This document shows positions 1 to 58,394 of a DNA stretch of 64,000 nt, piece after piece (the stretch's first letter is position 1; each line of letters begins with the position of its first letter). A program made the position numbers and the translations under genes. Below the pieces are notes generated by a model. It was not told where the DNA came from, ran no database searches, and saw only the letters and a list, made by a program, of their open reading frames with translations. The DNA is taken from NCBI GenBank assembly GCA_963965975.1, contig OZ014411.1, positions 11,353,501 to 11,417,500 of the forward strand. Reading direction: 5' to 3'. Origin of the DNA: Xestospongia bergquistia. Taxonomy: Eukaryota > Porifera > Demospongiae > Haplosclerida > Petrosiidae.

Positions 1-1530
1 ACATCTTGTGGAGGTACTTTAGGTCTTCCTTTACTGTTTAGCCTGCTCTTTAAGATATATGTAACTACAATAAAGTAAATATGTAGGACATTGAAAAATG
101 GTAAATGATATTTTTCAGATTTCATTTTAATTGCATCCTGATTTTTATATCTCAGTGAGGTCTTCCGACTTTGTCACAATATAAAAAGTCATATAAATAT
201 TCAGTATTAGACATTACAATATAACAATGTATTACTAACTACTTCATCTCTCTTGTCATGATCACCACACAACTTTCTCATAACACTCTTTACTTTCTTA
301 GTAATTTGTTCCAGAAATCCATTAATTGAATTCACAGACCAATTTAAGATCACTAGCAAACATTTATATAAAGAACTAGTCAATAACAGACATTAATGAA
401 TTGAAGTACATGTATTTACTAGTTAATATAGTGAAAGATACTACCTTTTTAGTACATACTTTAGTACATATAAATGTATATGTACATGTATATGTGATGA
501 TCATATACTTACCACATAAATGAGAGATCAGATGAACTAATCAATGTTTCTTCAAAGTTGTCAATATATGAAGTATGAACAGATACCATATTCATAATCC
601 AAGCTAACTGACGATTAGCTGGTTCCTATAATCTACACAGTGTCATATTAAAGATCACTTTATAGGACATGTACTTACTTTAATGGAGCTTTATGGACAC
701 TGGTTAGTGTTTGTAGTATAAATAAATTTAGACATAGTCCCCAAAAGTCATGCTGTATACAATCATCCACTATATATCATAAAATATATACATGTAATAT
801 TAATATTTCAAACATGTATTATTGTTGCTGTATTTAACATTAATAGATAGTCAACATACTTTGTTTGTCTTGTAAATGAGACAGACTAACAAAAGATGTC
901 ATTAAAATGGACTCTTCTTCAGAACACACTGTAATCATTTGTACAAATATAATCTTGAAGCGTTAATTAAAGTATTGTTCCAGATAACGGTTATACTATA
1001 GTTGTGTGGTTGAAATGTTCATAAACACAAAAGTGAAATTAATTATTGTATGACCATCAAGACCACACCCAGAGTGCAATATATTACATCATACATGCAT
1101 GATAGATCTAAGTAGTCTTGTATACATTGTATTGTTGTCAAAAGTGTTTGATGAATTTACAGAGAAATGTGATAATTGATTTAAATGTTCATAATAGCTG
1201 TACATGCTGTAAAACAACAGTCATAAAAATAACCACACCTACAATGATGTATATGTTTTCATACAGTACAGTCAGCCCAATGTGTCATATATAGCACTGT
1301 TAGTACCTTTTATATTTCCACACATGTGAAAATACTATAATAATACTATAATGATAAATGTTAATGACACACTGTCATTCTCTGTAGACATATAATTAAT
1401 TTTGTTATACGTACATTAACATACCATGATAATTTCTATCATTTGTACAGCATCAAAATTCTCCTAGAAATTTCAAATGATAGTTCTGAATTACTTATTT
1501 TCTTACCAAAGCAGAATGAAAGAATTAAAA
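1..1530 (-). pseudogene. NCKAP1 (HEM family) fragment, copy 1, cut by window edge
   Basis: Minus-strand exons resemble the middle of NCKAP1, a scaffold subunit of the WAVE actin-regulatory complex. Pieces, in plus coordinates: about 1-60 (linker exon with an internal deletion), 245-335, 508-625 (contains the MNMVSVHTSYID match to the family), 660-765, 855-935 (CSEEESI, open here) and 1425-1520 (YHLRFL-type stretch). The exon order runs towards the N-terminus as coordinates rise, as expected for the minus strand. The exon carried at 47440-47575 in copy 4 is missing. No intact reading frame can be assembled, so this is called a remnant. It lies head-to-head with the collagen pseudogene at 2107. 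Confidence 0.7.
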
Positions 1531-1972
1531 AGAAACAAGTCATTTAATATTATATGTACATGTCAATTAAAAATACATCAAACACTAGCTAAAATAGTAC
1601 ACAATATCGTTGATAAAAATTCAAAAGAAGTATTACAATAATTATAGCATCAGTAAGCACATGTACAATTATTGTTACATAGTATCCATCTTGTCATAGC
1701 TTCTAATGACAGTCTCACAAGGTAGTTAGTTCATCACTCTTAAATTTGGATTACAAACAGTAAAGGAGAGCCTGAGATATTTTCTGGTAAGTTGTGTGTC
1801 AAGAACACTTTATACAAAGAAAAGACAGCTTGAACAGCAATCCAGAGGAGATAACAGGAATGTATTAATAAACATGTTGAAGATTATCTTTATTGTTACA
1901 TCAAATTTAGATTAAATTTAAAACTGAACTTAAAATGTCAAATGATAAATAGAATTATAAAATTTGGCAGAC

Positions 1973-2000
1973 TCAACTGATGACTATAATTATAAAGAAC
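1973..2000 (+). promoter_or_regulatory. Degenerate core promoter of collagen copy A
   Basis: This matches the CAACTGATGACTATATAAAG block found upstream of every other collagen copy, but the TATA part is interrupted (tataattataaag). It lies about 110 bp before the dead start codon. Confidence 0.55.
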
Positions 2001-2106
2001 CAACAGTCACTCAAATATCAAAGAGATTCTCTTATAATTCAAGTAAAAGTGAACATTTCAAGCTCTTCAAGCAAATCTCTCCTTTTACATCAAACTAACT
2101 CTCAAG

Positions 2107-2446
2107 ATGATAATACAGATACTACCATCATTTGTTGTCCTGTAGCTAATTGTAGAACAATGTACTACAGCTGCTGTACAAGGTAATCATATTATTTTAA
2201 AAGTATTTAATTTCAACCATTTACTATAGAAACCAGTCAAAATAAAAGATGTACTCTCCTATACCAAATGTCACTACTAACACACCTTATATTCAATTAC
2301 TACAAGGACATGATGATCGTGATGGCATACAAGGTCCTCCTGAACAAGCTGGTACACCTGGAAGAGATGGTACCAATGGTATAGATGGCATTAAGGGTAA
2401 CAAAGGAGAACGAGGACAACAAGGGCCTCCAGGACCAAGAAATTAA
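2107..2446 (+). pseudogene. Short-chain collagen C4-like pseudogene, copy A
   Basis: Exon 1 aligns with the signal-peptide exon of the intact copies but has a TAG codon after 12 residues, where the others have Leu. The short intron and exon 2 follow. Exon 2 contains a Gly-X-Y tract that starts GHDDRDGIQG, has one damaged triplet (GPPEQA), and ends in TAA directly after PGPRN. The entire cysteine-rich C-terminal domain is absent. Copies C, E and F show what is lost. It cannot make a normal secreted collagen. Confidence 0.85.
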
Positions 2447-2880
2447 AGTGTGACGTTAATGACACCATATTTAAAATTATTTATACTAAAGTGACTATTA
2501 ACCTTTTAAACCTAATATATGCATACCATAATCTGTCTAGTACCAACAATTACTTAAAGAAATGAACATTTTAAACATTATTCCTAAAAGCTATTCACTC
2601 TTTTGTATCAAGTAGATGGCTTCTTATCACTTGTTAATTATTCAATTTATTTATTAGTGAACAGCTTTGAAAGAGACAAGTTTGTTTACAACACATTAGA
2701 AGAACTATTAAGGAATTAAACGTTTTATTTCCTATAACATCCATTTCTCTTATAAGCTTACATACTAAAAATTGGCTATGCATGTACCTGCTTTTATTAA
2801 TGCTACCTACCTGCTAGTTTAAAACTATCAAAACAGAACATTAGCACTCACATTTGCCATTTTAATAGATGGAGTCTTCT
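2447..2880. other. AT-rich intergenic stretch
   Basis: No gene, exon or repeat could be supported here. Confidence 0.5.
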
Positions 2881-4379: not shown

Positions 4380-5335
4380 CTCTATCAACACCTTACCCTG
4401 ACTAAAGAATTGATGCTACAGTATTAGTACTACACATAGATTACAATAGTGTAGTTTACAACAATATTAGTAACTCCACTTACATTACAATATAGAAAAG
4501 TACTTTTCATCTCATATTGTTTGTTGTGATATAATTACAAATGTATAATAGAATATCATCAAATAATTATGTATTCAAAAATGACTGAACACACACACAA
4601 ACTATTTACACAGTTTGTATACATGTTATAATATTCTACAAAAGTCATTCTATTCTCACTGTAACTAATTCTATCTAGAAGGAGCCTCTTCGACAATATA
4701 TAATATTTATATGTTAATCACATAGTGTTATTAGTAGTCAATTTGATACATATACTCACCAGGTGGTATAAGTATTGGCAATAATAACCTCTCCTTTGTT
4801 GTTCAATGGCCGTGTTTCTTGTAAACAACAAGTAACACTTAACATTGCATGATATATGACCTAACTTATAAAGGAAGATACGAAAAAATTATATTAACTA
4901 ATGTTATTATACCAGTATCTGAACTACATAACAGATTAAGTACATGTATATGTATACAAAACAGTAGGAATTACCTTGTTCTTTCTTCATGCATAAGTTC
5001 TATGATAACTCCCTTGTCCTTGATTGACTTCTTTTGGAGGTACTTTAGGTCCTCCTTTAATATTTGCCTTAGTTGGATGGTGAGCCACATAATGCCCTGC
5101 TCCTTGAGATTCGTGTAACTATAATAAATTAAATATGTAGGACAATATAGACTGGTATATAATATAATGCTACATGTAGAGATATTAACTTTTTCAGTAT
5201 TAGATTGGACACTGCAATATAACAATGCATTACTAAGCACTTTGCCTCTCTTCTATGATAAGCACACAACAGTCCCATAACAGTCTTTGCTTCCTTAGCA
5301 ATCTGTTCCTACTCCTCCTACATACTGAGCAGTAT
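4380..5335 (-). pseudogene. NCKAP1 remnant, compressed copy
   Basis: Several minus-strand NCKAP1 exons survive in short form. About 4760-4835 matches the ITRVF...YTNW region exon, 4975-5110 the linker exon, and 5235-5330 the next exon towards the N-terminus. The intervening exons present at 55316-55600 have been deleted. The 4380-4600 part corresponds to the flank at 60540-60700. Decay is heavier than in the other copies. Confidence 0.6.
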
Positions 5336-6038: not shown

Positions 6039-6039
6039 C

Positions 6040-6690: not shown

Positions 6691-6694
6691 ATTA

Positions 6695-9700: not shown

Positions 9701-12629
9701 TATTATAGTATGTATATGTAGATATTATAATGTAGAGTCAGTGAATCCAAATAAGTGAGAATGTGGTCAGTTTATATAGCCTTAGATCTGTGTGTTTAGT
9801 TATAATTGTAATAATGAGATTGATAGCTGACTGCATTGAAATAGTGATTAGTATGATGAAACTCACTTTTGTACACTAGTAGGCTTGTCGTCTATAAAAA
9901 CTTCCACATAGCGAGAGATGGGTTTGTATGTCTACTTAAATGTTAATGATCATTAGTCAATTTACAACTGTATAATAATAACATACTATGTGTTATTAGT
10001 CAGTACTTGGACATTATTTGTGAATTTTTCGTTTTTAGCTACCGAGGAAAAATTGTTTTCAGTATCAAAGAAACAAAGAGAAATAGAGGAACAACAGAAG
10101 ATAATAACATCATTGACATTACAACTAAGAGATAAAGACAAACAAAATGAGACATTAAAACAGCGTTTACAAGGTAATTGATATTATTATAACAGAAAAA
10201 AGAATCGATGAAAATCATAGGAATAGAGTCAATAAATGAAGAAAAAATTATTCAATAATAGTTGTCTCCTATTCTAAATTAGCACATGTATATTTAAACT
10301 TTACTTCTAACTTATTCTATTTGAGATCATGAATATAATTCATCATACCTAATACATGTATAATATAATTTTGTACAATGTTGTTATATATAGAAATTAA
10401 ACAAATAAGGGAAAAAAAGATTAAAGATTTGACATCGGTTCCAAAAAGAAAGGAAGGTATTATTAATATAATAGCAATCACTCACACAGTCTATGTAACA
10501 TAATTGTTAATAGTTATAGATCACTTGTTTCCTCTTAGATTTTGAGAAGGAATTTGTGCAAAAGACTGCTGAGGGTCAGAAAGAAATAGTGAAACTCCAA
10601 GAAGTAACCACATCAGTGGCATTGCAACTACTAGAAAGAGATGAGAAGATTGAGGAATTAAAGCAGACTTTAAAAGGTAAATATTACAGATAGATATTAT
10701 AGTATGAAGTGAGTAAATCCAAACAAATTGAGAGTGTGGTCAGTTGATATAGTCTTTGCACTGTGGGTTCAGTTACACTACTGTAGCAATAAAATTCATA
10801 GATGACCATATTGGATTCAGGTGTATTAGTGGAAATAAGTAAAAGAACATATCAACTGAGGTAAACTGATGTATATTACTTTGTAAGGATGTCTCACATA
10901 GCATTACCAACTTGGTCTCTAACTGTAAAAGCACCAAATGTAAATTCTAATTGCTGATGCAGTAGTTAATCATGAATGCTAGTAAAAAACACAACTCTAT
11001 ACATGTAGACTACCAGACTCTTCCTCTCTAAGCAAAAGGTCTGGCCTTACCTGACTATCTGTTAATATAACTGCAATAAATTCATAAATTAAATGATTTA
11101 TTATATCAAGGAAAGAGTCAATTCAACTGATAACTCATCTTATCTGTAATTCTTCAGCTTTTGTTTATATTTATTAGCAATTTAGCATGGACTGGACAAC
11201 TTTAGTCAGTATAGTTAATATACTTAACCACACCCACCAAACATTCTTGTGGTGACAGAGCATTCTTAATATATAATATAGAAAGATACTTTGTTCTCTC
11301 ATGTAACAAACATATCAACTCAATTCTGGACTCAGTGAAATGGAATGCAATAATGTTTGCAAAGCACGCTATATAGCTTTGTGCACAAGACATTTCAATA
11401 ATATTGGGCCACACAAGATAAGACAACTCAGAATATCATTTCGATTTCTATCCATTATCTACTGACAACTGTTATCAAATGAGCTTCACACTTTTCACTA
11501 ACTATTAGCAATAAAATATATGTGTTCCAGACAACATGACTTACTATAGCTAGGCCTAAAAAACAAATAATAGTAAAGGTAGCAATTTAAGAAGCATCTC
11601 AGTAAATTCCACTGACAGGATAGTTACAGTATACTAAAGTGGCAATTCTACCTTCTATTCTGTTTTAAAATATGCCTGTTTCTGTTTATATTTCTGTAAT
11701 TTTGTTGTCATAGTAACCGTATGGTCAGTAAACAATAATGGTTCTTTACTTCTTCAATCTATTGTGGTCTGTTATAGTATATATTACTATGTGTGTAATA
11801 TGATATATATTAACTCTGTTTTATAACAGGAGACACTGGCAGAGTTCACTGGAATGATGATAACCATAGTGTTGAACTCAGAAGTCCGAGCATAGTACAA
11901 AGTGAAGATGCTATAAGTAAATTAATAAAAGAAGAACAAACAGGAAAAGAATGGAGCATTAGTCTCTACTCATCACCTCCTGAAAGTACTGCAGTTGTTA
12001 TAAACAATCTTAACAAGTGTGCAGTGAGGAGACTTGATATATGGGACACTTCATTTGATAGTAAGTGTGTATCCGTTTTATCAGACACCCTACAAACCAA
12101 TATAACAATGAAGAGACTAGTGCTGGAGTCCTCTTCACTTACTGGTGGTATCAAACAAGTATGTGATAGTCTCTGTGATAACAAAACACTTGAACAGTTA
12201 GTATTGTGGCATGTTACTGGTATCACAGATGAAGATATGACTCACCTATCTAACATGTTAGAAAGAAATATAACTTTAAAAGAACTACGTCTCTACAACT
12301 GCAACATTACTGATAATGGAGTCCAATGCATCTGTGAAGGACTTACTAAAAACCAAACATTGACTAAATTGAACATCGGATGTAATCGTCAAATCACTTC
12401 AGTTAGTACCAGTGCGATAGCAGATCTAATACAAACAAATGCATCACTCATAAAACTATATCTCTATGATACTTCACTGAAGAATGACGATATCAAGACA
12501 ATATGTACATCACTTACAGAAAATACTACAATAAAGGAACTATACTTAGCAAGTCAACATGAAGAATGTTGTAAGCAGTTAGACAGTTATCAAGTGATTA
12601 AAGACAAACTTGTGTTCTCCTCTTTCTAA
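6766..12629 (+). CDS. DEATH domain, coiled-coil, LRR protein (13 exons)
   Basis: Proposed exons: 6766-6802, 6863-7159, 7215-7496, 7534-7902, 7951-8016, 8061-8734, 8793-8910, 9093-9188, 9582-9707, 10039-10173, 10394-10456, 10539-10676, 11830-12629. They sum to 3201 nt, which is exactly 1066 codons plus stop, a strong check on the model. Residues about 13-111 form a DEATH domain (LWHEIGSSL and LVTWETVIDAI). Residues 112-328 hold two further helical blocks that may be death-fold relatives. Residues 351-575 form a central domain containing FVLDWDPTNYTLEDI and IVTCFFPL, which I cannot name. Residues 576-800 are coiled coil from repeated exons. Residues about 850-1050 hold about six RNI/NLR-type LRRs (TLKELRLYNCNITDNGV). 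No NACHT domain or P-loop is present. The intron at 7160 has a GC donor (AAAG|GCAAGT). The exon 9 donor is the least certain. A role in death or innate signalling is inferred from domain type. Confidence 0.85.
9311..9403. mobile_element. Small inverted-repeat (MITE-like) element in intron 8
   Basis: AAGCCTAGTGGG at the left end is the exact reverse complement of CCCACTAGGCTT at the right end, about 93 bp overall. No clear target-site duplication is visible. Confidence 0.5.
9590..9800 (+). repeat. Duplicated coiled-coil exon plus flanking intron (unit 1)
   Basis: The exon and following intron resemble 10560-10770. Both exons end in GAAGAATTAAAGCAG-like code, and both introns contain GTGGTCAGTT, then a TATAGTCTT- or TATAGCCTT-like string, then TTCAGTTA or TTTAGTTA. 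This is a tandem exon duplication within the DEATH/LRR gene. Confidence 0.6.
10560..10770 (+). repeat. Duplicated coiled-coil exon plus flanking intron (unit 2)
   Basis: Partner of 9590-9800. The similarity runs past the donor into the intron, which shows a DNA-level duplication rather than convergent coil sequence. Confidence 0.6.
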
Positions 12630-13426: not shown

Positions 13427-13427
13427 T

Positions 13428-14002
13428 TAGGACCTCCAGGATCAAAAAGTGGAGGTGTGATCTTTACTCGATAGGAAAGTACTACCTGCCCTATAACTAA
13501 TGATACGGAAATACTCTACAAAGGGAACACTGCAGGAAGTTCATAGGACCAAACTGGAGGTGGAGCTAATTACATTTGTGATTTGTCTACCTGATGAACC
13601 TGAGTTTCACTCATACACACTTGGTATTTATTAGAAGCACTCATACATCTATGGAGCAGAGTATGAAGCTTATCAACATGGTCCTTTAGCTTCAATTTAT
13701 GATCACAATGCCCCTTGTGTTGTATATTATGTTTCCACTAGAGTATCATATCTAATGATGCAGCAAAGATTACATGTCCTAAAACATGGACCACAGAATA
13801 TTAAGGTACCTCATGGCTGAGTCTTACCACCATAAATGCAATGCAGTCTATGAATGTGTTGATAAAGATCCTGAATCTATTCCAGGTAGTCCAGCTAGTA
13901 CTGATAGTGCTTTATTCTCTCATGCTCAATTTCAATGAAATCGTCTTCTATGTTGTCTTTAACAAGGAGAAAGAGTTAGTCTAGGTGGTGTGTACCAAGT
14001 GA
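13428..14002 (+). pseudogene. Short-chain collagen C4-like pseudogene, copy B
   Basis: The sequence begins abruptly at the TIR element, in what should be the end of the Gly-X-Y tract (GGACCTCCAGG). It continues through the cysteine-rich C-terminal domain to TGTACCAAGTGA. The signal exon, intron and nearly all collagen triplets are absent. It carries an in-frame TAG in place of the RWG motif, a 2-nt insertion near 13580, and further indels around 13790 and 13940. It is non-functional. Confidence 0.85.
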
Positions 14003-25838: not shown

Positions 25839-25967
25839 TCTATTCCAGGAAGTATTGCTAATGATAATGATGCTTTAATCTGTCATGTTCAAACTCAATG
25901 TAATGGTCTCCTCTGTCCTCCTTATGACAATGAGAAAGAGTTAGCCTGTGTGGTGTGTACCAAGTGA
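25838..25967 (+). pseudogene. Collagen C-terminal fragment, copy D
   Basis: The last 42 codons of the collagen C-terminal domain (SIPGSIAND to VVCTK and stop) stand alone, with no promoter, signal exon or triple-helix tract. They were created by the tandem duplication boundary inside copy C. The frame is still open. Confidence 0.85.
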
Positions 25968-40861: not shown

Positions 40862-41720
40862 TTACAAAGTAAACTTGTTGTTAATCTATTAATTCATCAA
40901 GTGATTTGCAGTTCTCTTTGATCTTCCTGATCTAAATATTTGTCATAATGTTCCTCAGCTATCAAATGTATGTTGATATCATTTTCTCTGACTCGAAATT
41001 TATAACATTTCGCCAGTATTACGAATATAATAAGTATTATGAGAATAATGACACCTTTTAGTACATGATAGTATAGACTCTGACAATGTGTTTGTTCTTG
41101 GGAATTAAATGGATATCTCCCATTAATGCTAATGAGATAACCAAATCCAAATGCTGCATTCCACAAATCATCTCATGTGGACACTGAACTATTGTGAATT
41201 CTAATGATGTTGGAACAATAAAAGCAAAAGCAATCCCATATAAACTTTTTGGAATAATAACTGTTTTGTATGAAGTGTTAAAACTATCTATGGAAGTCAA
41301 CATGACAGCATAATATAATGTAGTCAATAAAGCAAAAATAAGTCCTAGGCCAATTCTCTTGAGCATACTAGGAATAAATTTATATAAACATGGATATATC
41401 AACAACTGATAGAGAAGAATAAGAACTACAGCTACTAATAAGTATATTGAATTATTCAAGAAAAAGCAAGAGATGAACTGTGGTGTTTGTTTTGAATAGA
41501 AAAACTATTCACAGTTAATTCAGTTGCACAGCAAAGACCCACTATAGAGATTAATAAAGGAATTAATCTTAAAAATCTTTTTAACATCTTCTACCTGCTC
41601 CACTGAGAAATGTCCACCATATTTTTGTTTACCTATGTCTAGGTGTGAAGGATACTTTTCCTCCTAGTAGGTCAAAGCACTACGATTTTTTTGACATTTG
41701 TTTTTTCTAAAAACAATGGT
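40862..41720 (-). pseudogene. Transporter pseudogene, C-terminal part
   Basis: It matches 33660-34530 of the intact gene. A deletion near 41167 removes the MRGFLVGL-type codons and shifts the frame (one open piece 40897-41166, another 41058-41459). Further indels lie near 41480 and 41570. The copy stops at about 41720, near residue 240 of the intact protein. Confidence 0.88.
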
Positions 41721-42440: not shown

Positions 42441-42444
42441 ACCT

Positions 42445-42900
42445 TTGATATAGGTTGGAATTCCTCAGCCATGTGAGGTATTGAATGTTCTAAATCAACA
42501 ACCATTGTCCTAAACATGGAAAATTACAATCCTTGGAAAAAAGAGGAAATAATTATGCTGTATAGACAACATGTGTCATAAGCTAGACCAATCAAGTGTT
42601 ATTATCAAGATACAACATTGATTATCTAGCTGTTAACAATAACTGTTAGTTACATGTACTTACGGTGTTCCTCTTGTGGTTTCATGAGCAATATTGTAGA
42701 GAGCACAAATGCCCTTCCTAAAGACAATATATAATATGCTAAATTCTAATAAAAATTTTCTCATAAAATGAAACAAATTTGATCTACAACACTGTATTAG
42801 TCTGTAGTACATGTACTCTATAATATATCGATGAAGTTGATCTGTTGATAAGTTTAATCTAAAGAACACTTCATACAAAGATTAGATAGCTTGTGTAACA
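42445..42900 (-). pseudogene. NCKAP1 N-terminal exons, copy 6
   Basis: Two or three minus-strand exons match the N-terminal third of NCKAP1. The 42445-42530 piece encodes TMVVDLEHSIPHMAEEFQP. The piece ending at the donor near 42660 encodes KGICALYNIAHETTRGTP. The piece up to about 42870 encodes EVFFRLNLSTDQLHRYIIEY. An intron with a TCTTTAG acceptor separates the last two. The frames are open, but the rest of the gene is absent on both sides, so it is called a fragment. It lies head-to-head with collagen copy E. Confidence 0.75.
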
Positions 42901-43837: not shown

Positions 43838-44738
43838 ATGGTAATACAGATACTTTCACTCTTGGTAATGGTTGTCCTCTTACTAACAGTAGAACAATCT
43901 ACTACAGCTGCTGTACAAGGTGATAATAATGTTTTAATAATAAGTATTCATTTCCAATCCATTTATTATAGAAACCAGTCTAGATAAGAGATGTACCTCT
44001 CCTACACCAAATATCACTACTAACACACCTTATATTCAAATACTACAAGGACGTGATGGTCGTGATGGTATACAAGGTCCTCCTGGACCAGCTGGTACAC
44101 CTGGAAGAGATGGTACCAATGGTAAGCATGGAATGAAAGGGGAAAAAGGAGAACCAGGACCACCAGGACCTTCTGGACAAAGAAATGGAGGTGTGGTCTT
44201 TACTAGATGGGGACGAACAACCTGTCCTACAACCAATAATACAGAATTACTCTACAAAGGGAAAGCTGCAGGGAGTTATTACAGTGAAACTGGAGGTGGA
44301 GCTAACTACATTTGTCTACCTAATCAACCTGAGTTTTTATCATACACACCTGGTGTTTATCAATGGCAGTTCTATATCTATGGAGCAGAATACCAAAGTT
44401 ATGGTAACAGTGGTCCTTTCTCCCCAATTAATAATCATAATGTCCCCTGTGTTGTATGCTATGTTTCCACTAGAGTATCATATCTAATGATACCAGCAAA
44501 AATTACATGTCCTAAAACATGGATCACAGAATATCAAGGTTATCTCATGGCCGAAAATTATGACCACAAGCATAATGCAGTCTATGAATGTGTTGATAAA
44601 GATCCTGAATCTATTCCAGGAAGTGCTGCTAGCACTAATGGTGCTTTATTTTATCATGTTCAAGCTCAATGTAATGGTCTCCTCTGTCCTCCTTATGACA
44701 ATGAGAAAGAGCTAGCTTGTGTGGTGTGTACCAAGTGA
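43838..44738 (+). CDS. Short-chain collagen C4-like protein, copy E
   Basis: Exons are 43838-43919 and 43972-44738, with a 52-nt intron, giving 282 residues. The signal peptide is about residues 1-25 (IQILSLLVMVVLLLTVEQ). Cys35 lies in DKRC, which could be a basic cleavage site. An NIT sequon at about 41 precedes Gly-X-Y triplets from residue 54 to 98 (15 triplets, ending [12 protein letters not shown]). The C-terminal domain (99-282) has ten Cys and the family motifs [26 protein letters not shown] and [15 protein letters not shown] at 44817-44822 is a likely polyadenylation signal 80 bp after the stop. It would act as a secreted matrix protein. Confidence 0.93.
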
Positions 44739-45620
44739 ACAAAATATTTTCTAAACAGTTTGACATCAATTTTTGAGTGATTTTGTAATTTGTACTTGAT
44801 GTTACAATGTTTTTGGAATAAAAGTTTAATCTATTTGTTAAAGCTGTTAGATATTAGACAGAGGGGTAGGAATGAAGTTTAAGGGCTGACCTTATAATTT
44901 AGTTGCGCTATAATTATTATTAAACATCAAAAATGACCAAAAATTAATTCGTCTGTCATTAAAGGAAACAACTCTAGCTATTTCTAATAAGTTTATGTTA
45001 TCAGTACAGTCCTTATGTGTATAGTACAGCATGACATGGTTTAGTTGTTCTTAGTTGTTCTTGGGTCATAGTACTTCGTACACAAATTAACACAATAATC
45101 ACTTCAGTCAAGAGTTTATTTTGTACATAGTCTTGAGTGCAAATCAGGGGGGCTTAGCCCCTCCTGATTTGAAGTTGGAGGGGCTTTGTTATTAAGTATG
45201 GCAATAGAGAGTCTGTAAACTCATGGTTTGATTTTTCAGGTATAGCACAAGTATTAATTATGTGTTAACATTTCCCCATTGGATTTGTGGCTTCCTGACT
45301 CCAGTGTCTGGCTACATATGCTATCACAATAAATCCTTTGTAGAAAGGGATTTTAAAACATGAATGCAAATGGCATTGTTAATTGTTCCACATTATTTAA
45401 CAGAGTCTGAAACAGAGTGCTGGTATCTTCACACCATTCTTCTGAGAGTATGCAAATACATGCTCCATCAATTTACTCTAGTGTTAAAAATTACACCTTG
45501 AATTTGTGGCTTTTTTGACTCAAGTATCTGGTGACATATGCAATCATTATAGGTCCTTTACTGTATATGAAACCAGCCTGTCTGTAGTATATGCATACAT
45601 GTGCTCAGAGACTATCTAAT
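44739..45620. other. Collagen E 3' flank and spacer
   Basis: It contains an imperfect hairpin at 45141-45170 (AAATCAGGGGGG and CCCCTCCTGATTT arms). It also has a weak direct repeat of about 220 bp (GTGGCTTCCTGACTCCAGT at 45286 versus GTGGCTTTTTTGACTCAAGT at 45506). No gene is seen. Confidence 0.5.
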
Positions 45621-45729
45621 AAAGCTTAAAGAGATAACTTTCTAAATGCTAGTAGAATACCAATAATGATAGTACGTTGAATTAAGTCATCACCATCTAT
45701 ACAAGAACACATTACATTATTACATGTAC

Positions 45730-46091
45730 TATATATCATATGTTATGTGTGTGTTGTGACATACTCTTCAGTTTACGAAATAAGTCATTAAATATATCTG
45801 GTTTATCTCGATTGGTGTGAAGAGCTAACAATGTGTGTAATGCTAATTTTTTGATTTCTTTGACTTGAGCACCAACTTGTTCCATAATCCGATCTCCCAA
45901 ATATTGTAAACCATAAGGACCAACAATTTCAGCCAATGACTGCATCTCTGACAACACAGAATGATACATGTCATTGTTTGGTAGGAAAACTATTTTGTTC
46001 TTTGAGTTACAAATGTGCAATAAATTATTTATATAGTTCAAAATATCAGATCACATAATCTTATAAATAGTCCAGTTGATATATGCATACA

Positions 46092-46181
<90 letters not shown>

Positions 46182-48795
46182 CATTTATGTATGTATGTAT
46201 ATATAGTCTTAATACATATATTACCAGGTGGTATAAGTACTGGCAATAGTAGCCTCTCCTTTGCTGTCTAAGGGTTGTGTTTCTTGTAAGAGAACTGAAG
46301 TTAGAACTCGAGTCATATCAACATTAACTACAGAAAATGCAAACAATATCACTTACATACATTTAGTATATACTAGAGTAGTAGTGTCTGTATATGTACT
46401 CATAGTACATAGTATATTGTGATATTATATCACTACATTATATACTGACTATACTATTCTATGTTGCTATATTAGTTCTCTTACCATACAATTCCAGACT
46501 TCTCAATGTAGATATATAAGATTGAATACGTAACAGAACTTCTGATGGTCTTGCTATCTCTTGAGTTTCAGAATTATAGTTCATCATAGCAACAACATTT
46601 CTAGTAACAACAATAACGAGAATTATAACTTAACATTGCATGATATATGACTTACCTTATAAAGAGATCTTCTAGATGTGAGAGAAGATATTCTCTTGGA
46701 GTAAATGTGTGATCCCAGGCAGATATGGAAGGAAAGGCAGTCACTGTATGACACAAGTTAACTAATGTTGTCAGAGCAGTATCAGAACTACATAACAGAT
46801 AAAGTAAATATATATGTACACAAAACAGTAGAAGAAACCTTGTTTTTTCTTCACGAGCTCTACGATAACTCTCCTGTCCAGGATGGACTTCTTGTGGAGG
46901 TACTTTAGGTCCTCCTTTACTCTTTGTCTTAGTTGGATGGTGAACCACATAATGGCCTGCTCCTCGAGATACATGTAACTATAATAAATTAAATATGTTA
47001 TAACTTCATAAATAAAAAAATAAATAAGAATTTTTGAACTCTAGGCCACCTGACTAAAATGTTGAAGCCAAGCAGAATGAGCATATTTGAAAATTAAAAT
47101 TTCTATTTTAGTTGGGTCTGTTGACTTTGATACTTGATAATAACTGGTAAATAATATAATATTGTACATGTATAAATATTGAACTGTTCAGTAGTAGACA
47201 TTATAATATAACAATGTACTACTAAACACTTCATCTCTTTTGCCATGATCAGTACACAAACTGTCCCATAACAGTCTTTACTTCCTTAGCAATTTGTTCT
47301 AGAAATCCATTAATAGAATTCACAGCTTTTTCACCAATTTGTGGTCGCTATTGAATATGTATAAAGAACTAGTCAACAACAGATATTAATGAATTGGACT
47401 ACATGTATTTGCTACAAAATATAGTCAGAGATGTTACCTCTTCGAGACAGAAGTGTGTCGTACAGTTGAGGAACTCAGAGCTCACCATTGGAAATGCTAT
47501 CAGATATTGCTGTTGCTGAGCATGTTTCAGACAACGTCCAAATTCTTGTTCCAGTTGACAAAAGAAGAAACTAAATGTAAAAGTGTAAAACACAATAGAC
47601 ATTTTATTAGTAATTCTTAATATACATATTTTAGTATATATTAATGTATATGTACATGTACTGTGTGATGATCATATACTTACCACATAAATGAGAGATC
47701 AGATGAACTAATCAATCTTTCTTCAAAGCTGTCAATATATGAAGTATGAACAGATACCATATTCATAGTCCAAGCTAACTGACGATTAGCTGGTTCCCAT
47801 AATCTACACAGTGTCATATTAAAGATCACTTTATAAAACATGTACTTACTTTAATGGAGCTTTATGGACACTTGTTAGTACTTGTAGTCTAAACCAATCT
47901 AGACGTAGTCCCTCAAAGTCATACTCTACACGATCATCCACTATATATCATAAAAAATATACATGTAATGAAAATATCACACAAATGTATTATAAATGTT
48001 GTTGTTGTATATAAGATTAGTAGATTGTCAACTTACTTTCTTTGCCTTGTAAATGAGACAGACTATCAACAAAAAATGTCATTAAATGGACTCTTTTTCA
48101 GGACACACTGTCATCCTCTGCATATATATAATTATATTATAAATGCTTTATATATATATATGTAATATACCATGACAATTTCTCTCATTTGTGCAGCATC
48201 AAATCCTCCCAGAAATCTCAAATGATAGTTATAAATTACTTTCCGATATTTTCTTACCAATGCTGAATAAAGAAGATGAAGCTAATTATATTAGTGGATG
48301 ACACTGACCTTTCAGACGAACTGTTTCAAAAATAAGTTCAGGAAGAGCTGGGTCTGAGTAATCCTCAGGGTTAGGTTTGTATTTTCCTTTGGGTGTGGTC
48401 ACACTGCCATGTTTCATTATCCAATGTATCTCATCTTTTGCTAAAGCAAGTGCTAGTAACACTGTAGTAATCTGGAGAGGCAGAGAGATAGAGAGATCAT
48501 GTTTAAGTCTTAAATCACATTGATCTGTTCTACATTTACCTTAGATCCTAATAGTCCAGGTTGATCAGATAGGAACAGATACAACTCATTCAAAGCTGTA
48601 CATAGATAACGTCGTTGTTCATGATGTAAAGGACCACTAATATGATAATGAGACAAGACATTATTATATCAGTATTATTGAAGTATATGCACAGATAACA
48701 CATATGTGTGTGTAGTATTGTAACTTACGCATTTTGTAACACTGAATTTAGTTGATCTTGTGCTTCACTTGCACGTTTTCGATCTCTGACAAAAG
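45730..48795 (-). pseudogene. NCKAP1 pseudogene, copy 4 (central part)
   Basis: The best-preserved central segment. In plus order the exons are about 45775-46041 (SEMQSLAEIVGPYGLQYLGD), 46225-46330, 46488-46610, 46665-46770 (WDHTFTPREYLLSHLEDLF), 46850-46965, 47235-47350, 47440-47575 (CLKHAQQQQYLIAFPMV, unique to this copy), 47680-47800, 47860-47950 ([16 protein letters not shown]), 48030-48120, 48160-48250, 48305-48480 (AKDEIHWIMKHG), 48540-48640 (LSDQPGLLGSK) and 48729-48790. All match the order of animal NCKAP1. Lesions: one base is missing in the 48030-48120 exon near 48085; the exon equivalent to 54750-54860 is replaced by a microsatellite; the C-terminal exons and N-terminal third are absent. 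Confidence 0.85.
46085..46202. repeat. (CATA)n(TA)n(TGTA)n microsatellite
   Basis: Simple repeat of about 115 bp inside the NCKAP1 copy 4 region, at the place where one exon is missing. Confidence 0.95.
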
Positions 48796-48860
48796 ATAAG
48801 GACATGAAATATTTATGATATAGAAGGTTTGTCATTGATTAATGATCTTAAACTAATAAA

Positions 48861-49076
48861 CAGGTTATTGATAAGTGACTTTCGCGGGGTTAGAATAGTT
48901 AAATAAAATGTATTAATTATTATTACTATTATAATAATTATTATTATTGTTCATAGTCTTATGTGCCTTTATCTCAAACAGACCATGCTTTAATAACAAT
49001 AATAACAACAATAATAAAAATAGTAATAATATATTTAACTATTCTAACCCCGCGAAAGTCACTTATGAATAACCTG
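48861..49076. mobile_element. MITE-like TIR element, 216 bp
   Basis: The left 45 nt (CAGGTTATTGATAAGTGACT, then TTTCGCGGGGTTAG) are the reverse complement of the right end with one mismatch. The interior is ATT/TTA-rich with no coding capacity. It sits where NCKAP1 copy 4 loses its N-terminal exons. The target duplication is not clear. Confidence 0.8.
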
Positions 49077-49590
49077 ACACTAAGTGTATTCATTGGCTTT
49101 AATTAATGAAAACCGATTATTCATTATCAAGATGGCGACTTTTGCACTGTTAGATACTGTTGTTGTAATTTTTGATTCTATGGATAATGTAACAACCTGC
49201 TGACAAGTTCAAGATCGAAAATGATGAATTTTTAGTACTTTTACGGATGCATTTCTTTGTACGATTTGTATAACATGTAAAAATAATAGTGATTAAAGTA
49301 AGCAAGGTTTATAGCTTTGTAAAAATGTCAAATATCATTATAGAAATAAATCCATCCGTATAATTGTAGTAATTGACTTCATCTTTAATTTTCAAAAGTT
49401 TCAGCTCTCTAGGTTTTTTAATATTATTATTTGACGTCTCCAAAGCATTGCAGATATTAAGGAATCAAACTACATTTCTGCAAAGTACTAGGGTTTAAAA
49501 AATTTTTTAAAGCATGACCAATTATTAGAACAAGTATCTTTACATGATTCCATCAAAAAAAACTGAAAAAAAATTTCAGATATTTTTACC
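49077..49590. other. Unassigned spacer with a short start-like frame
   Basis: AAGATGGCGAC at 49129-49139 starts a 23-codon frame (49132-49203). The context is a good translation start and resembles a YY1-type site, but no continuation exon is recognised. Confidence 0.3.
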
Positions 49591-49595
49591 TTAAG

Positions 49596-50030
49596 TCTTC
49601 CTTCACCAAGTAACAATACCACTGTACTGATAGCTACTATATCAGTGAGACAAGGGAAAGTCTTAACTAATACTCTGTCATTATAGAGGATGGTTTTCCC
49701 TGACCTTTTCATTCAACTAACCTAACCACTATATTGATAGCTTTCCTTTATCTGATAGACAGGGGAAGGTCTTATCTACTCTGTCATCATAGAGGATGGT
49801 TTTCCCTGACCTTTTTCTTTCAACTAATCTAACCACTGTACTGATAACTGATTCAGTGGACAGACAAGGGAAGGTCTTATCTACTATGTCATCTATCAAC
49901 AGCCAGAAGGTCTACTCTGACCAAGTAACCTAACCACTATACTGATAACTGTCCTTTATCCGATAGACAGAGGAAGGTCTTATCTACTTCTCTGTCATTA
50001 TAAAGGATGGATTCCATGACCTCAGCTTTT
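49596..50030. repeat. Collagen upstream repeat, about four units
   Basis: Units of about 100-110 bp with AAGTAACCTAACCACT, ACTGATAACT, GACAAGGGAAGGTCTTATC and CATAGAGGATGGTTTTCC. They are more diverged than those at 43345-43665. Confidence 0.8.
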
Positions 50031-50119
50031 GATGTACCTGTCCTCCTGTCCCTTTTGGTAAAGTTATCCAACCTATAAAGGAATAACCTCTACATTCACA
50101 AGTACTCTAAAATTTGATG

Positions 50120-50345
50120 TTGTCAACAACTGATGACTATATAAAGAACTGACAGACAGAGTTTTACATAGCAGAAAATCTCTTTAAATTCAAGTAAAGT
50201 GAACTTTTAAGCTCTTCAAGCAAATCACTCCTTCTACATCAAACTAACTCTCAAGATGATAATACAGACACTCATTATTGGTTGTCCTGTTACTAACTGT
50301 AGAACAATGTACTACAGCTGCTGTACAAGGCAATCACATGGCTTA
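50120..50345 (+). pseudogene. Orphan collagen promoter and first exon, copy F'
   Basis: A full core promoter (TATATAAAG at 50138-50146) and a signal-peptide exon from ATG 50256 are present. The exon has a frame change after ACTCATTATTGG and its donor is GC (CAAGGCAATC) instead of GT. No collagen exon follows before a new upstream repeat and the intact promoter of copy F. It is a partial duplication left behind upstream of the working gene. Confidence 0.8.
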
Positions 50346-50359
50346 AAAATATTTAGTTC

Positions 50360-50590
50360 TAATCAAGGGAAGGTCTTAACTAGTACTCTGTATCATAGAG
50401 GATGGTTTTCACGGACCTGGTTCTTTCAAGTAACCTAACACTAGACTTTATCCATGGAGCAAGGGAAGTTCTTATCTATTTTTCTGTCATCTATCAATAG
50501 CTAGAGGATAGTTTTTCCTGAACTTAGCCTTTGGTGGACCTTTTACCTGTCTCCTTTGGTCATTTTGTCCAACCCATAAGGGAATGGCCT
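50360..50590. repeat. Collagen upstream repeat and conserved upstream block, copy F
   Basis: One to two repeat units lead into ACCTGTCTCCTTTGGTCA and CCCATAAGGG (50573-50582). Confidence 0.7.
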
Positions 50591-50637
50591 CTTCACTCAC
50601 AAATGATATTACAATTTAAAATTTGATCAAATTTGTC

Positions 50638-50659
50638 AACAACTGATGACTATATAAAG
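50638..50659 (+). promoter_or_regulatory. Core promoter of collagen copy F
   Basis: CAACTGATGACTATATAAAG, with TATATAAAG at 50651-50659, 102 bp before the ATG. Confidence 0.75.
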
Positions 50660-50752
50660 AACTGTAAGAAAGATATTTAAATATAAGAAAATTATCTGAA
50701 TTTTGAAGCAAAAGAAGCAAATCATTTCTTCTTCAACAAGCTAACTCTCAAG

Positions 50753-51638
50753 ATGATACAGATACTATCAATGTTGATTGTCCTGTTACTAACTATAGAA
50801 CAATGTACTGCAGCTGCTGTGCAAGGTAATTGTATTTTTTCTAAGAATATTCAATTCCAATCCATTTATTATAGAAACCAGTCGAGATAAGAGATGTACC
50901 TCTCCTACACAGAATGTCTCTACCAACACACCTTATATTCAAATACTACAAGGACGTGATGGTCGTGATGGCATACAAGGTCCTCCTGGACCAGCTGGTA
51001 CACCTGGAAGAGATGGTACCAATGGTAAAGATGGAATGAAAGGCAACAAAGGAGAACGAGGACAACAAGGGCCTCCAGGACCAAGAAATGGAGGTGTGGT
51101 CTTTACTAGATGGGGACGTACCACCTGTCCTACAACCAATGATACAGAATTACTCTACAAAGGGAAAGCTGCAAGTAGTTCTCATGACCAAACTGGAGGT
51201 GGAGCTAACTACATTTGTCTACCAAATCAACCTGAGTTTTTATCATACATGCCTGGTGTTCATCAATATCAGTCTTATATCTATGGAGTAGAGTATGAAA
51301 CTTACGAAAATGGTCCCTTAGCTTCAATTCACGATCATAATGCCCCCTGTGCTGTATGTTATGTTTCTACTAGAGTATCATATCTGATGATACCAGCAAA
51401 GGTTACATGTCCATTAACATGGACCACAGAATATCAAGGTTACCTCATGGCTGAGCTCTTTAGCCACAAACATAATGCAGTCTATGTGTGTGTTGATAAA
51501 GATCCTGAATCTATTCCAGGAAGTGGTGCTAACACTAATGGTGCTTTATTCTATCATGTTCAAGCTCAATGTAATGGACTTCTCTGTCCTCCATATGATA
51601 AGGAGAAGGAGCTAGCCTGTGTGGTGTGTACCAGGTGA
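50753..51638 (+). CDS. Short-chain collagen C4-like protein, copy F
   Basis: Exons are 50753-50825 and 50875-51638, with a 49-nt intron, giving 278 residues. The signal peptide (IQILSMLIVLLLTIEQC) is followed by DKRC and a NVS sequon. Fifteen Gly-X-Y triplets follow; the last part reads GNKGERGQQGPPGPR, different from copies C and E ([11 protein letters not shown]). The C-terminal domain keeps [28 protein letters not shown] and LACVVCTR. All Cys positions of copy E are retained. The protein would be a secreted matrix component. Copy F sits downstream of an orphan duplicate of its own promoter and first exon. Confidence 0.93.
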
Positions 51639-52890: not shown

Positions 52891-53957
52891 AACTAAAATG
52901 GTGCTTCCATATCAACTTCTTTGTCCTTTCTCTTAGATGTCTATTAAAGATGCAAACAATACACATATTAGATATGTTATAAACTATATAATAATATACT
53001 ATAATACTCAATGAAATTTGATGATATTTTTACTCATTAAAATTGTAGTAAAATATTTGTCAATGACAACTTTATCTTCAATGAGTATCATAAATGACAA
53101 TGGAATTATTAATTACAAGCTTGTCTTTGAAAGGACAAAAACTTCATTCAGAATGTTTTAGTTAGATAGTAACTCTTCAATCTAGTTTTAACTATAACAG
53201 TCATACTAATGACCATATGTAATGATAAAGTACCTATTATTACATTAACATATATACTTACAACAGGTCTCCTGTATACTGAGTTATAACCATCTCTTAG
53301 TAGACAATATGGAAAACATGACTCCAACAAATCACGAGTCAGAAAAGGAGACTCTGCTACAAACTAAATCAAAGAACAATGTTATCATAGTAACGTACAT
53401 AAATCTGATACACTTACTAAATCCAGTAGAACATATATAGCTTCTCAAGCTTTGGGGACATCTTTCTCACGATCAACTTCTTTGGCAAGTGTCATTATAC
53501 GAGATGAAGTGAACTAGAAGTTAAAAACATATAAATACAATGAGTATATCCCTACAATTAAGTCATTACTATTATATTATCAATGTACTATATAATCTTA
53601 CTAATATTTAACTGGTATGTACTTACAATAATGAAATCTTTCATTCCATCTTTTTGTTCTTGTTCTCCATAGAATGCAAACACAGCTCCAGCAATAGCAT
53701 TCACAGCAATAGCAAGACAATGGACATTATTTTCATGACCTACATTATGTAAAGTACAGACTTTCATTAAATTGACAAGAACAATAACATTATCCATACG
53801 TTAGCACATGGACTATATAGTATTGATAGTAGTGAATCTTCAAAACTTGGTAAAAATTGTGACTCTCCTTTCATTGCTAATTCAAGTAAGTACACACCCA
53901 CAAACACAAGATAGAGAAACCAGATTTGTTTGTCATCTAAACTCTTATCTACAATAG

Positions 53958-53987
53958 AAAGAGAGAGACAGAGACAGAGACAGAGAC

Positions 53988-54028
<41 letters not shown>

Positions 54029-54066
54029 GACAAAGAGAGACAGAGAAAGAGACAGAGAGAGAGAGT
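53958..54066. repeat. GAGACA/GA-rich microsatellite
   Basis: Purine-rich GAGA and GAGACA repeats of about 105 bp in an intron of NCKAP1 copy 5. The open frames across it on both strands are artefacts of the repeat. Confidence 0.95.
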
Positions 54067-54937
54067 ATTGTCTACATCCTACTCTCTCTATCTTACCACA
54101 ATGAGCTTTCATAGTATTAAACAGAAGTGGATCAACATCACACTCAATACCAGCAGCAGTAGCCATAGGATCAGCAACCTATACATGTACATGTAATATA
54201 TGTTGTTGCTTGAAGAGATAACTTTCTAAATGCTAGTAGAATACCAATAATGATAGTACATTGAATTAAGTCATCACCATCTATACAAGAACACATTACA
54301 TTATTACATGTACTATATATCATATGTTATGTGTGTGTTGTGACATACCCTTCAGTTTACGAAATAAGTCATTAAATATATCTGGTTTATCTCGATTGGT
54401 GTGAAGAGCTAACAATGTGTCTTGGTTCTGTAATACTAATTTTTTGATTTCTTTGACTTGAGCACCAACTTGTTCCATAATCCGATCTCCTAAATATTGT
54501 AAACCATAAGCAACAACAATTTCAGCCAATGACTGCATCTCTGACAACACAGAATGATACATGTCATTGTTTGGTAGGAAAACTACTTTGTTTTTTGAGT
54601 TACAAATGTACAATAAATTATTTATATAGTTCAAAATATCAGGACACTTTATTACACTACTATTCTAGCATTATATTACTCCTGTAAAAAATAAATCCCC
54701 TTTATTAGGACATAATAATGAGATGTTAACTAATTTATAAATAGTACTTACTGACCTTGAACATCTGAATACTCTTCAGCTTTAAATGTCATAATATGAC
54801 GACTAACAAAAGCCATTCTATTTTTACTGTAACAAATTCCACCTTGAGAGACCCTCTTCAACAGAACATTGCTATACCTACCAGATATATATAATATTGA
54901 TATGATGATCACATAATCTTATAAATGGTCCAGTTAA

Positions 54938-55040
54938 TACATACATACATATATATGTATGTATGTATGCATTTATATATATATATATATACAGTCTTGA
55001 TAGTCCAGTTGATACATACATACATACATACATACATACA
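54938..55040. repeat. TACA/TATG microsatellites
   Basis: Short CATA, TATG and TA runs in an intron of NCKAP1 copy 5. Confidence 0.85.
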
Positions 55041-56770
55041 GTCTTAATATATATATTACCAGGTGGTATAAGTACTGGCAATAGTAGCCTCTCCTTTGCT
55101 GTCTAATGGTTGTGTTTCTTGTATAAGAAATGAAGTTAGAACTCGAGTCATATCAACATTAACTACAGAAAATACAAACAATATCACTTACAAACATGTA
55201 GTATACTAGAGTAGTAGTGTCTGTATATGTACTCATAGTATATAGTATATTGTGATATTATATCACTACACTATATACTGACTATACTATTCTATGTTGT
55301 TATGCTAGTTCTCTTACCATACAATTCCAGACTTCTCAATGTAGATACATAAGATTGAATACGTAACAGAACTTCTGATGGTCTTGCTATCTCTTTAGTC
55401 TCAGAATTATAGTTCATCATAGCAACAACATTTCTAGTAACAATAATAATGAGAATTATAACTTAACATTGCGTGATATATGACTTACCTTATAAAGAGA
55501 TCTTCTAGATGTGAGAGAAGATATTCTCTTGGAGTAAAGGTGTGATCCCAGGCAGATATGGAAGGAAAGGCAGTCACTGTATGACACAAGTTAACTAATG
55601 TTGTCAGAGCAATATCAGAACTACATAACAGATAAAGTAAATATATATGTACACAAAACAGTAGAAGAAACCTTGTTTTTTCTTCACGAGCTCTACGATA
55701 ACTCTCCTGTCCAGGATGGACTTCTTGTGGAGGTACTTTAGGTCCTCCTTTACTCTTTGTCTTAGTTGGATGGTGAACCACATAATGGCCTGCTCCTCGA
55801 GATACATGTAACTATAATAAATTAAATATGTTATAACTTCATAAATAAATAAATAATTAATGTTTTTGAACTCTAGGCCACCTGACTAAAATGTTGAAGC
55901 CAAGCAGAATGAGCATATTTGAAAATTAAAATTTCTATTTTAGTCTGGTCTTTTGACTTTGATACTTGATAGAAACTGGTAAATAATATAATATTGTACA
56001 TGTATAGATATTGAACTGTTCAGTAGTAGACATTATAATATAACAATGTATTACTAACCACTTCATCTCTCTTGCCATGATCAGTACACAACTGTCCCAT
56101 TACAGTCTTTACTTCCTTAGCAATTTGTTCTAGAAATCCATTAATAGAATTCACAGCTTTTTCACCAATTTGTGGTCGCTATTGAATATGTATAAAGAAC
56201 TAGTCAACAACAGATATTAATGAATTGAACTACTAGTTAATATAGTGAGAGATATTACCTTTTTAGTACATATTTTAGAAAATATTAATGTACTTGTACA
56301 TATACTTACAAACATAAATGAGAGATCAGATGAACTAATCAATAGCTGTCAATATATGAAGTATGAACAGATACCATATTCATAGCCAGGCTAACTGACG
56401 ATCAGCTGGTTCCCATAATTTATACAGTGTCATACCAAAGATCACTTTATAGGACATCTATTTACTTAAATAGAGGTTTATAGATAGTAGTCAGTACTTG
56501 TTTTCTAAAGTACATCTAGATTAGTCCCTCAAAGTCATATTCTATGCAATAATCCATTATATATCATAAAACATATACATGTGATGTTAATATTACAAAC
56601 ATGTATTATAAATGTTGTTGTTGTATTTAACATTAGTAGATAGTCAACTTACTTTCTTTGTCTTGTAAATGAGACAGACTATCACCAAAAGACATTTTAT
56701 GGAACTAGTTCAAGATCTGAGTAATCCTCATGTTTGTATTGTTCTTTGGGTGTGGTCACATAAACACATG

Positions 56771-57165
56771 TACAAACAGACAAAATAAGTCATTACTATT
56801 ATATTATTAATGTGTTATATAGACTTTATATATATAATGTAATGCTTAAGTGGTAGCTTGAAACTTAAAAATATGATTATTATTGTCTTTAAAGAGGAAA
56901 CTACAACTATAAGAATTGTGTTAAAGCAATAAAACTAAACTCTAATTTCAATAAAATTTGTAAAGAGACAAATAAACTTCAATGGTAGCACAAAATAAGC
57001 TGATTGCCATAAACATTCACAAAAATTAAATATAATAGAAATTCTTTTTATTAAATACATTAAATAGAGTAATAGTAAAGATTGATAAGATAAAGTTATC
57101 AATTCATTTTTATAACAAAGACAACTTCTAAATCAACATATTCTTTGACTTATGTCTTCTCTGAA
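56771..57165. other. Spacer upstream of collagen G, shared with copy C
   Basis: About 56820-57150 matches 21690-21970 upstream of copy C (TTAAAGCAAT, then AACATTCACAAAAA), so copies C and G share upstream history. Confidence 0.6.
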
Positions 57166-57169
57166 CTTG

Positions 57170-57411
57170 TTCTTTCATATAACCTGACCATTGTACTGAT
57201 AATTAATTCATCGGAAAGATAAGAGAACGTCTAAAGTCACTCCTCTGTTATCATAGAGGATTTTTTTTCTGATCTCAGCCTTTGATGTACCTGTCCACCT
57301 GTCTCCTATGGTCAAGATATACAACCCATAAGGGAATAGCCTCTTCATGAACAAACATGTTCATATTTTAAAATTTGATCAAAGTTGTCAACAACTGATT
57401 ACTATATAAAG
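57170..57411 (+). promoter_or_regulatory. Promoter region of collagen copy G
   Basis: One upstream repeat unit, then CCACCTGTCTCCTATGGTCA, CCCATAAGGG (57325-57334) and the core with TATATAAAG at 57403-57411, 112 bp before the ATG. It has the same order as copy C. Confidence 0.7.
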
Positions 57412-57522
57412 AACTGAAGGACAGACATTTAAACATCAGAACAAAATTCTTAAAATTCAAGTAAAGAGAACTTTTAAGCTCTTCAAGAAAATCTCTCCTT
57501 CTACATCAAACTAACTCTCAAG

Positions 57523-58394
57523 ATGATGATACAGATACTATCATTGTTAGTTGTCAATGTACTACAGCTGTTGTACAAGGTAAAAAGATTGTTTTAAAAA
57601 TATTCAATTCCAATCCATTTATTATAGAAACCAGTCGAGATAAGAGATGTACCTCTCCTACACCAAATATCACTACCAACACACCTTATATTCAAATACT
57701 ACAAGGACGTGATGGTCGTGATGGCATACAAGGTCCTCCTGGACTGGCTGGTAGACCTGGAAGAGATGGTACCAATGGTAAAGATGGCAATAAAGGGGAC
57801 AAAGGAGAACCAGGACCACAAGGACTTCCAGGACCAAGAAATGGAGGTGTGGTCTTTACTAGATGGGGACGTAACACATGTCCTACTACCAATGATACAG
57901 AAGTACTCTACAAAGGGAAAGCTGCAGGGAGTTCTTGGGACCAAACTGGAGGTGGAGCTAACTACATTTGTCTACCTGATGAACCTGAATTTCTCTCATA
58001 CACACCTGGTGTTTATCAATGGCAATCCTACATCTACGGAGCAGAATACCAAAGTTATGATAACAGTGGTCCTTTCTCCCCAATTAATGACCACAATGTC
58101 CCCTGTGTTGTATGTTATGTTTCCACTAGAGTATCATATCTAATGATACCAGCAAAGACTACATGTCCAAAAACATGGACCACAGAATATCAAGGTTATC
58201 TCATGGCTGAACTATACAACCATAAACGTAATGCAGTCTATGAATGTATTGATAAAGATCCTGAATCTATTCCAGGAAGTGGTGCTAACACTAATGGTGC
58301 TTTATTCTATCATGTTGAAGCTCAATGTAATGGTCTTCTCTGTCCTCCTTATGACAATGAGAAAGAGTTAGCCTGTGTGGTGTGTACCAAGTGA
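57523..58394 (+). pseudogene. Short-chain collagen C4-like, copy G, frameshifted signal exon
   Basis: Exon 1 (57523-57579) is 57 nt, against 76 in copy C, because 19 nt coding the end of the signal peptide are deleted. The intron is 57580-57627. Exon 2 (57628-58394) carries a completely open collagen frame: 15 Gly-X-Y triplets, then the ten-Cys C-terminal domain ending LACVVCTK. After splicing, the ATG frame does not match the collagen frame, and retention of the 48-nt intron does not repair it. So the matrix domain is well kept but seemingly lacks an in-frame start. An unseen alternative first exon would rescue it; otherwise this is a very young pseudogene. Confidence 0.75.

Follow-up and report, generated by a model that had tools for sequence, protein, structure and literature searches.

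A tandem array of a nested NCKAP1-collagen locus in the sponge Xestospongia bergquistia

A stretch of 64,000 nucleotides of the sponge Xestospongia bergquistia (contig OZ014411.1, here C1, positions 11353501-11417500; hereafter the window) was analysed for copies of two genes, NCKAP1 on the minus strand and a short-chain collagen on the plus strand, and the genome (146 Mb on 21 contigs) was searched for further copies of both. Repeats throughout the window were evident in a self-BLAST, and three minus-strand frames of window positions 45001-51000 matched the Pfam Nckap1 profile with E values of 4.6e-31, 4.4e-16 and 9.8e-27. Exon-wise tblastn revealed tandem NCKAP1 and collagen copies across C1:11330001-11585000, and in the fuller units the order runs from NCKAP1 exon 25 to exon 6, then the collagen, then exon 5 onward. 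The nested NCKAP1-collagen locus is repeated in tandem, and the window covers a part of that array. The initial annotation had placed minus-strand NCKAP1 sequence to the left of a plus-strand collagen at five places in the window, and the exon-wise searches recovered this arrangement at all five (5/5); beyond these places they also detected NCKAP1 fragments, a decayed collagen and a collagen 3' fragment (Table 1).

As the same annotation had stated, every NCKAP1 copy inside the window is partial, and the search for an intact one led to a full-length copy where the array ends on the right (C1:11574-11585 kb), 157 kb to the right of the window. The model of this copy, which supersedes an earlier 25-exon model of 1130 codons, has 28 exons, GT-AG introns and an open reading frame of 1176 codons, with some uncertainty as to where the last exon ends. 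Its product matches the Pfam Nckap1 profile (PF09735) from position 2 to 1118 of 1119 with 1301.7 bits, a profile that the window copies match piecewise. Pieces of NCKAP1 could be aligned to chain 3p8c_B (Nck-associated protein 1), which we take to be the human protein, a subunit of the actin-regulating WAVE complex. Intron 5 of the full-length gene (2957 bp, 11579291-11582247) holds a whole collagen gene (11580548-11581429) on the opposite strand, so placed that exons 6 onward of the host face its 5' end and exons 1-5 lie beyond it, the first exon about 3.2 kb past its 3' end. The collagen is an antisense gene nested within NCKAP1 intron 5. The order exon 6, collagen, exon 5 is kept in units at C1:11484-11488, 11510-11514 and 11567-11571 kb, and remnants with the order exon 6, collagen, exon 4 were found at C1:9567-9571 and 9743-9747 kb. 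For Amphimedon queenslandica v2.1, 3358 nested genes are on record (PMC10282587), which suggests that nesting itself is common in sponges; the present case resembles other sponge intron-nested genes in this respect, but here the spread of the nested collagen carried pieces of the host along.

Read from sequence alone, the array collagen is best described by two exons, one for the signal peptide and one for the main part of the protein, separated by a GT-AG intron of 47-52 bp. In many copies the stops and frameshifts that appear in a single-frame reading fall within this short intron, and copies D and E are therefore open. Of the three window collagens that had been called intact (C, E and F), this held for C and E, while F is probably not intact, since its exon 2 is kept but an open signal-peptide exon was not found; D can be added to the open ones. 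Across the array, 17 of the 27 copies examined are open, a count that leaves out a partial copy at 11343582 and three 3' fragments (11379339, 11489075 and 11536260). The Gly-X-Y stretch matched Pfam Collagen just above the curated cut-off (E 1.1e-6 in D and 1.6e-6 in C). The C-terminal domain yielded no significant sequence match among solved structures (PDB) or Pfam families; in 4/4 window copies its cysteines C15, C45, C90, C93, C110, C137, C164, C169, C180 and C183 are invariant, and it has no HSQ motif. According to PMC5395295, spongins are related to collagen IV and have a collagenous domain that is short, seven cysteines in common with collagen IV, three of their own and no HSQ. By these published criteria, applied in place of an alignment with a named spongin, the array collagen is alike in its signal peptide, short Gly-X-Y stretch and ten-cysteine C-terminal domain without HSQ, and we classify it, as predicted from these features, as a spongin-type short-chain collagen; its setting inside NCKAP1 differs. 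Short-chain collagens of A. queenslandica are coordinately up-regulated in adults, according to PMC3447736; if the same holds for this genome, the array copies would probably function in the matrix of the adult.

A genome-wide search with the Nckap1 profile returned at least 72 exon matches, all on C1, three of them on the plus strand near 10.608 Mb and the rest on the minus strand at 11.37-11.58 Mb, and a DNA search added older NCKAP1 pieces at 9.53-9.81, 9.99-10.01, 10.60, 11.27-11.29 and 13.94 Mb of the same contig. Counts from the genome searches are lower bounds, as only the best candidates were scored and old fragments may be missed. The query with exon 1 (351 bases) had a single match genome-wide, and exon 1 was found in 0/12 other host blocks measured. 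One of these 12 blocks carries 24 of the 25 queried exons and another 23 of 25, and the two oldest have many frameshifts and stops, with a ratio of nonsynonymous to synonymous substitution rates (dN/dS, omega) near 0.8. Alignment of the units revealed where they are joined. In units V504 and V563, both with exon 2 retained, intron 1 runs into the 3' flank at an identical junction; a second type of junction, present in all three units aligned, leads from next to exon 5 into the 3' flank; and a short unit, aligned in two copies, has exon 6 connected to the intron-3 side. Eight relics of this short unit, with exons 5 and 4, occur in the array, one of them at window position 42443 adjoining collagen D. 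A microhomology at the intron-1 junction was considered and set aside, as it would have to be judged against an undisturbed 3' flank. The intron-1 junction and the single exon 1 thus place a duplication breakpoint inside the host gene, with truncated copies, as in a truncating module of the RCCX type.

Searching the genome with the collagen protein gave at least 139 matches, clustered on contigs C1, C3, C5, C8 and C11, which were collapsed by hand to 129 collagen places (two of them, 9536278 and 9536658, seem to be the two halves of a single gene). An NCKAP1 match lies within about 6 kb (from 6 kb before to 6.9 kb after the start of the collagen match, with NCKAP1 places compiled by hand) at 45/45 collagen places at C1:9.5-11.6 Mb and at 0/84 elsewhere. 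The 40 places on C3, C5, C8 and C11 were counted as unassociated without distances, there being no NCKAP1 match on those contigs other than repeat-type matches (query about 190-365), which lie far from the collagens and were set aside as a dispersed repeat. Genome-wide, the proposed pairing therefore holds for 45/129 places and fails for 84/129, and the module explains one stretch of C1, not the whole collagen family. Six collagen places at 13.15-13.72 Mb of C1 are among those with no NCKAP1 nearby. Five collagens in this region (C1:13151458, 13276519, 13365773, 13492864 and 13593684) lie 89-127 kb apart, three of them equal in score and none with an NCKAP1 match nearby; they perhaps belong to a much larger repeated unit.

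We compared the divergence of the collagen with that of the host sequence around it. Over six units aligned from exon 6 to exon 5 in 100-base bins, the mean pairwise difference was 0.023-0.065 in the flanks (0.098 in one bin, with 6 pairs) and 0.077-0.115 in the collagen, within which one conserved bin stood at 0.022. Collagen exon 2 was more diverged than the left intron-5 flank in 15/15 unit pairs and than the right flank in 14/15. The synonymous divergence (dS) of the collagens was 0.077-0.244 (10 pairs of five units), and that of the host exons, measured against the full-length copy, was 0.031-0.048 in 9/12 units, the other three giving 0.019, 0.103 and 0.129. The collagen is a divergence island within more alike flanks. 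The collagens are under purifying selection, with an omega of 0.39 over 171 pairs of 19 copies (two with exon 2 only); diversifying selection was considered as the cause of the island and rejected, as dN exceeded dS in just 1 of the 171 pairs. A site-order recombination test on the collagens gave p 0.001 (17 copies, 124 sites), and copy 11532996 is a mosaic, agreeing with copy 11375836 at 179/180 and 560/564 sites on either side of a tract in which it agrees at 84/96, where copy 11475102 matches at 94/96. Host and collagen trees of 11 units, expected to be congruent if the two halves were duplicated together, were instead discordant, each dataset rejecting the topology of the other by the approximately unbiased (AU) test (p 0.0003 and 2e-7).

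Taken with the shared synteny, the shared junctions and the complete association within one stretch of C1, which support the proposal that both genes were amplified as one unit with mostly the collagen half kept, the discordance of the trees is better read as later exchange among the collagens than as a failure of co-duplication. We consider it highly probable that an intron-nested collagen was co-amplified with NCKAP1 as a passenger, and that the collagens exchanged sequence afterwards. In such a scheme a spongin-type collagen sitting antisense in NCKAP1 intron 5 would be amplified by repeated tandem duplication of the locus. The long unit would span from the 3' flank of the host to intron 1 and, because it ends there, each new host copy would arise without exon 1 and presumably without the promoter, while the nested collagen would be copied whole. 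The host copy would thus start as a passenger and decay, the collagen would start complete, and decay and selection would act afterwards, leaving the array with a single complete NCKAP1, at its right end. The history of the collagens would later be uncoupled from that of the flanking host DNA by gene conversion or unequal exchange among them, as the mosaic tract and the tree discordance suggest. We infer the order of these events, the role of selection on the collagen, and conversion as the means of exchange. A broader version, that this NCKAP1 intron launched a matrix gene family in several waves, complete collagens and exon-1-less hosts budding off while one complete host stayed at the edge and exchange confined to the nested gene renewed its diversity, so that some 44 collagen loci over 2 Mb would derive from one nested gene, is put forward tentatively, as somewhat less than an even prospect.

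Several results weigh against co-amplification followed by exchange. Unit V477 (C1:11476905-11489077) lacks exons 1 and 2, and its 26/28 exons have both splice sites, no stop and no frameshift, with an omega of 0.18; V504 (C1:11504684-11516444) lacks exon 1 and has 27/28 exons, one frameshift and an omega of 0.25. By our estimate a copy that was dead from birth should show an omega nearer 0.5, unlike these two, which may be very recent, may have been copied from another haplotype, or may still be expressed from another 5' end. Several types of junction exist, so that exon 1 was not lost at one breakpoint in every unit. A site-order signal appeared in one of two tests of the host segments (p 0.91 with 10 units and 0.04 with 9 units, 30 sites each). 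Bootstraps in the host tree range from 9 to 83, and with a host tree so weakly supported the direction of the discordance is not firm. Finally, in the best tree of 29 sequences (AU p 0.59) the two sampled 13-Mb collagens fall inside the NCKAP1-associated group, although a tree excluding them from it is not rejected (p 0.41); of 12 distant collagens, C8:6246420, C1:24833050 and C1:19070300 were omitted from this tree, the start of their exon 2 not being recognised.

Other explanations of the array and of its island were weighed against co-amplification followed by exchange. The locus had first been described as a divergent head-to-head pair, which would share a promoter and be amplified together. 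The two genes are indeed on opposite strands with the host to the left of the collagen at all five window places, but the host sequence upstream of the collagen is mostly exons 6-25 and not the promoter end, the first exon of the full-length host lies on the far side of the collagen, and none of the 12 other host blocks has an exon 1, so that we find a head-to-head pair barely credible. It is very improbable, too, that the array is an assembly artefact with haplotypes placed in tandem: two of the blocks are 98.95% alike across 2578 bp, as such an artefact might produce, but in the 255 kb of C1:11330001-11585000 only 6 self matches of at least 1500 bp reach 97.5%, exon content and junctions vary among the copies, and remnants occur at five other places on the same contig.

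The remaining two alternatives concern the island. Under the same nested co-amplification, long-lived balanced diversity, or a higher mutation rate in the collagen, could take the place of exchange between loci; the edges of the island track the gene, and the C-terminal stretches with many nonsynonymous differences per site (pN) also have many synonymous ones (pS), as this would have it. The mosaic tract of copy 11532996 and the site-order result for the collagens point instead to exchange, and the low collagen omega gives no sign of diversifying selection, which makes this alternative rather unlikely, if worth keeping in view. The exchanged part could also be the host halves, if the flanks had been homogenised recently and selection had maintained the differences among the collagens. 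Over exons 25-22 plus introns, nine host blocks are just 2-5% apart, and the poor resolution of the host tree would fit as well; yet identity drops at both edges of the collagen, and homogenisation would have to halt at the gene every time. We judge homogenised flanks to be unlikely.

The closest known architecture, by analogy, is the human RCCX module (STK19-C4-CYP21-TNX). There, according to PMC8362596, STK19B retains 914 bases from the 3' end, the pseudogene TNXA is truncated as well, and exchange takes place between copies. Both systems would have a tandem unit that ends inside genes and so yields truncated copies, inner genes that are duplicated, and exchange between copies. In RCCX, however, the genes are neighbours with some overlap, whereas here the gene that is kept sits antisense within an intron of the passenger; moreover, the host blocks measured here number 12 in addition to the full-length copy, and the greater divergence is found in the retained gene and not in the passenger. 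Neither a collagen nested in NCKAP1 nor an array of this kind was reported in the literature searched, which comprised titles and abstract openings and had most subscription journals outside its coverage. Nested genes and truncating tandem modules are both known, but that literature showed no combination of the two in which the passenger hosts the amplified gene. The scheme would offer a concrete mechanism for lopsided co-duplication, in which the position of the breakpoint in the host decides that hosts are truncated and nested copies whole, and it would account for a substantial fraction of a sponge matrix gene family. The array would also be a natural test of how a presumed-essential gene survives within duplicating DNA, and a collagen island in near-identical flanks would allow inter-locus exchange to be measured directly.

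Table 1. NCKAP1 and collagen copies in the window, in window positions (e, NCKAP1 exon).
Feature	Position	Strand	Evidence
NCKAP1 copy A, pieces e16-e06, degenerate, runs on to the left of the window	1-1832	-	exon-wise tblastn
Collagen copy A, fragment with a stop	2306-2461	+	exon-wise tblastn
NCKAP1 fragments e19, e16, e15	4759-5308	-	exon-wise tblastn
Collagen, decayed, ten stops within matched pieces	13430-13953	+	exon-wise tblastn
NCKAP1 block e25-e12, unit V370, pseudogene	15823-18357	-	dN/dS 0.81 vs full-length copy, 4 frame-shifted exons, 2 stops
NCKAP1 block e22-e06, unit V372, pseudogene	18795-21474	-	dN/dS 0.76, 6 frame-shifted exons, 9 stops
Collagen copy C, open; signal-peptide exon, 48-bp intron, exon 2 (Gly-X-Y and Cys-rich C-terminal domain)	22342-23232	+	
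Collagen 3' end fragment, 95% to copy C	25839-25964	+	exon-wise tblastn
NCKAP1 e05, 3' part of e04, then e06 residues 1-24; short-unit relic, intron-3 side joined to e06	42443-42899	-	
Collagen copy D, open, 52-bp intron variant	43838-44738	+	
NCKAP1 block e22-e08, unit V399; 3 frame-shifted exons, 1 stop	45620-48638	-	Pfam and exon-wise tblastn
Collagen copy E, open, 49-bp intron	50753-51638	+	
NCKAP1 block e25-e12, unit V406; 2 frame-shifted exons	53262-56557	-	exon-wise tblastn
Collagen copy F, exon 2 open, open signal-peptide exon not found	57628-58394	+	

The window holds further sequences besides these copies. The minus strand at 33686-35233, 40897-41504 and 60898-61218 carries a membrane protein gene whose weak match to Major Facilitator stays under the Pfam cut-off, and as partial copies are among these, other genes of the window stretch were duplicated as well. 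Leucine-rich repeats at 11814-12629 and 31041-32036, with a weak COR-A match below the cut-off, possibly belong to proteins of an innate-immunity type. To the right of collagen C there is a pair of tandem repeats, 23483-25298 against 26274-28079 (86%) and 25220-25839 against 28078-28706 (97%), and related AT-rich repeat arrays with many self matches of about 75-88% occupy 38300-40250 and 62450-63520.

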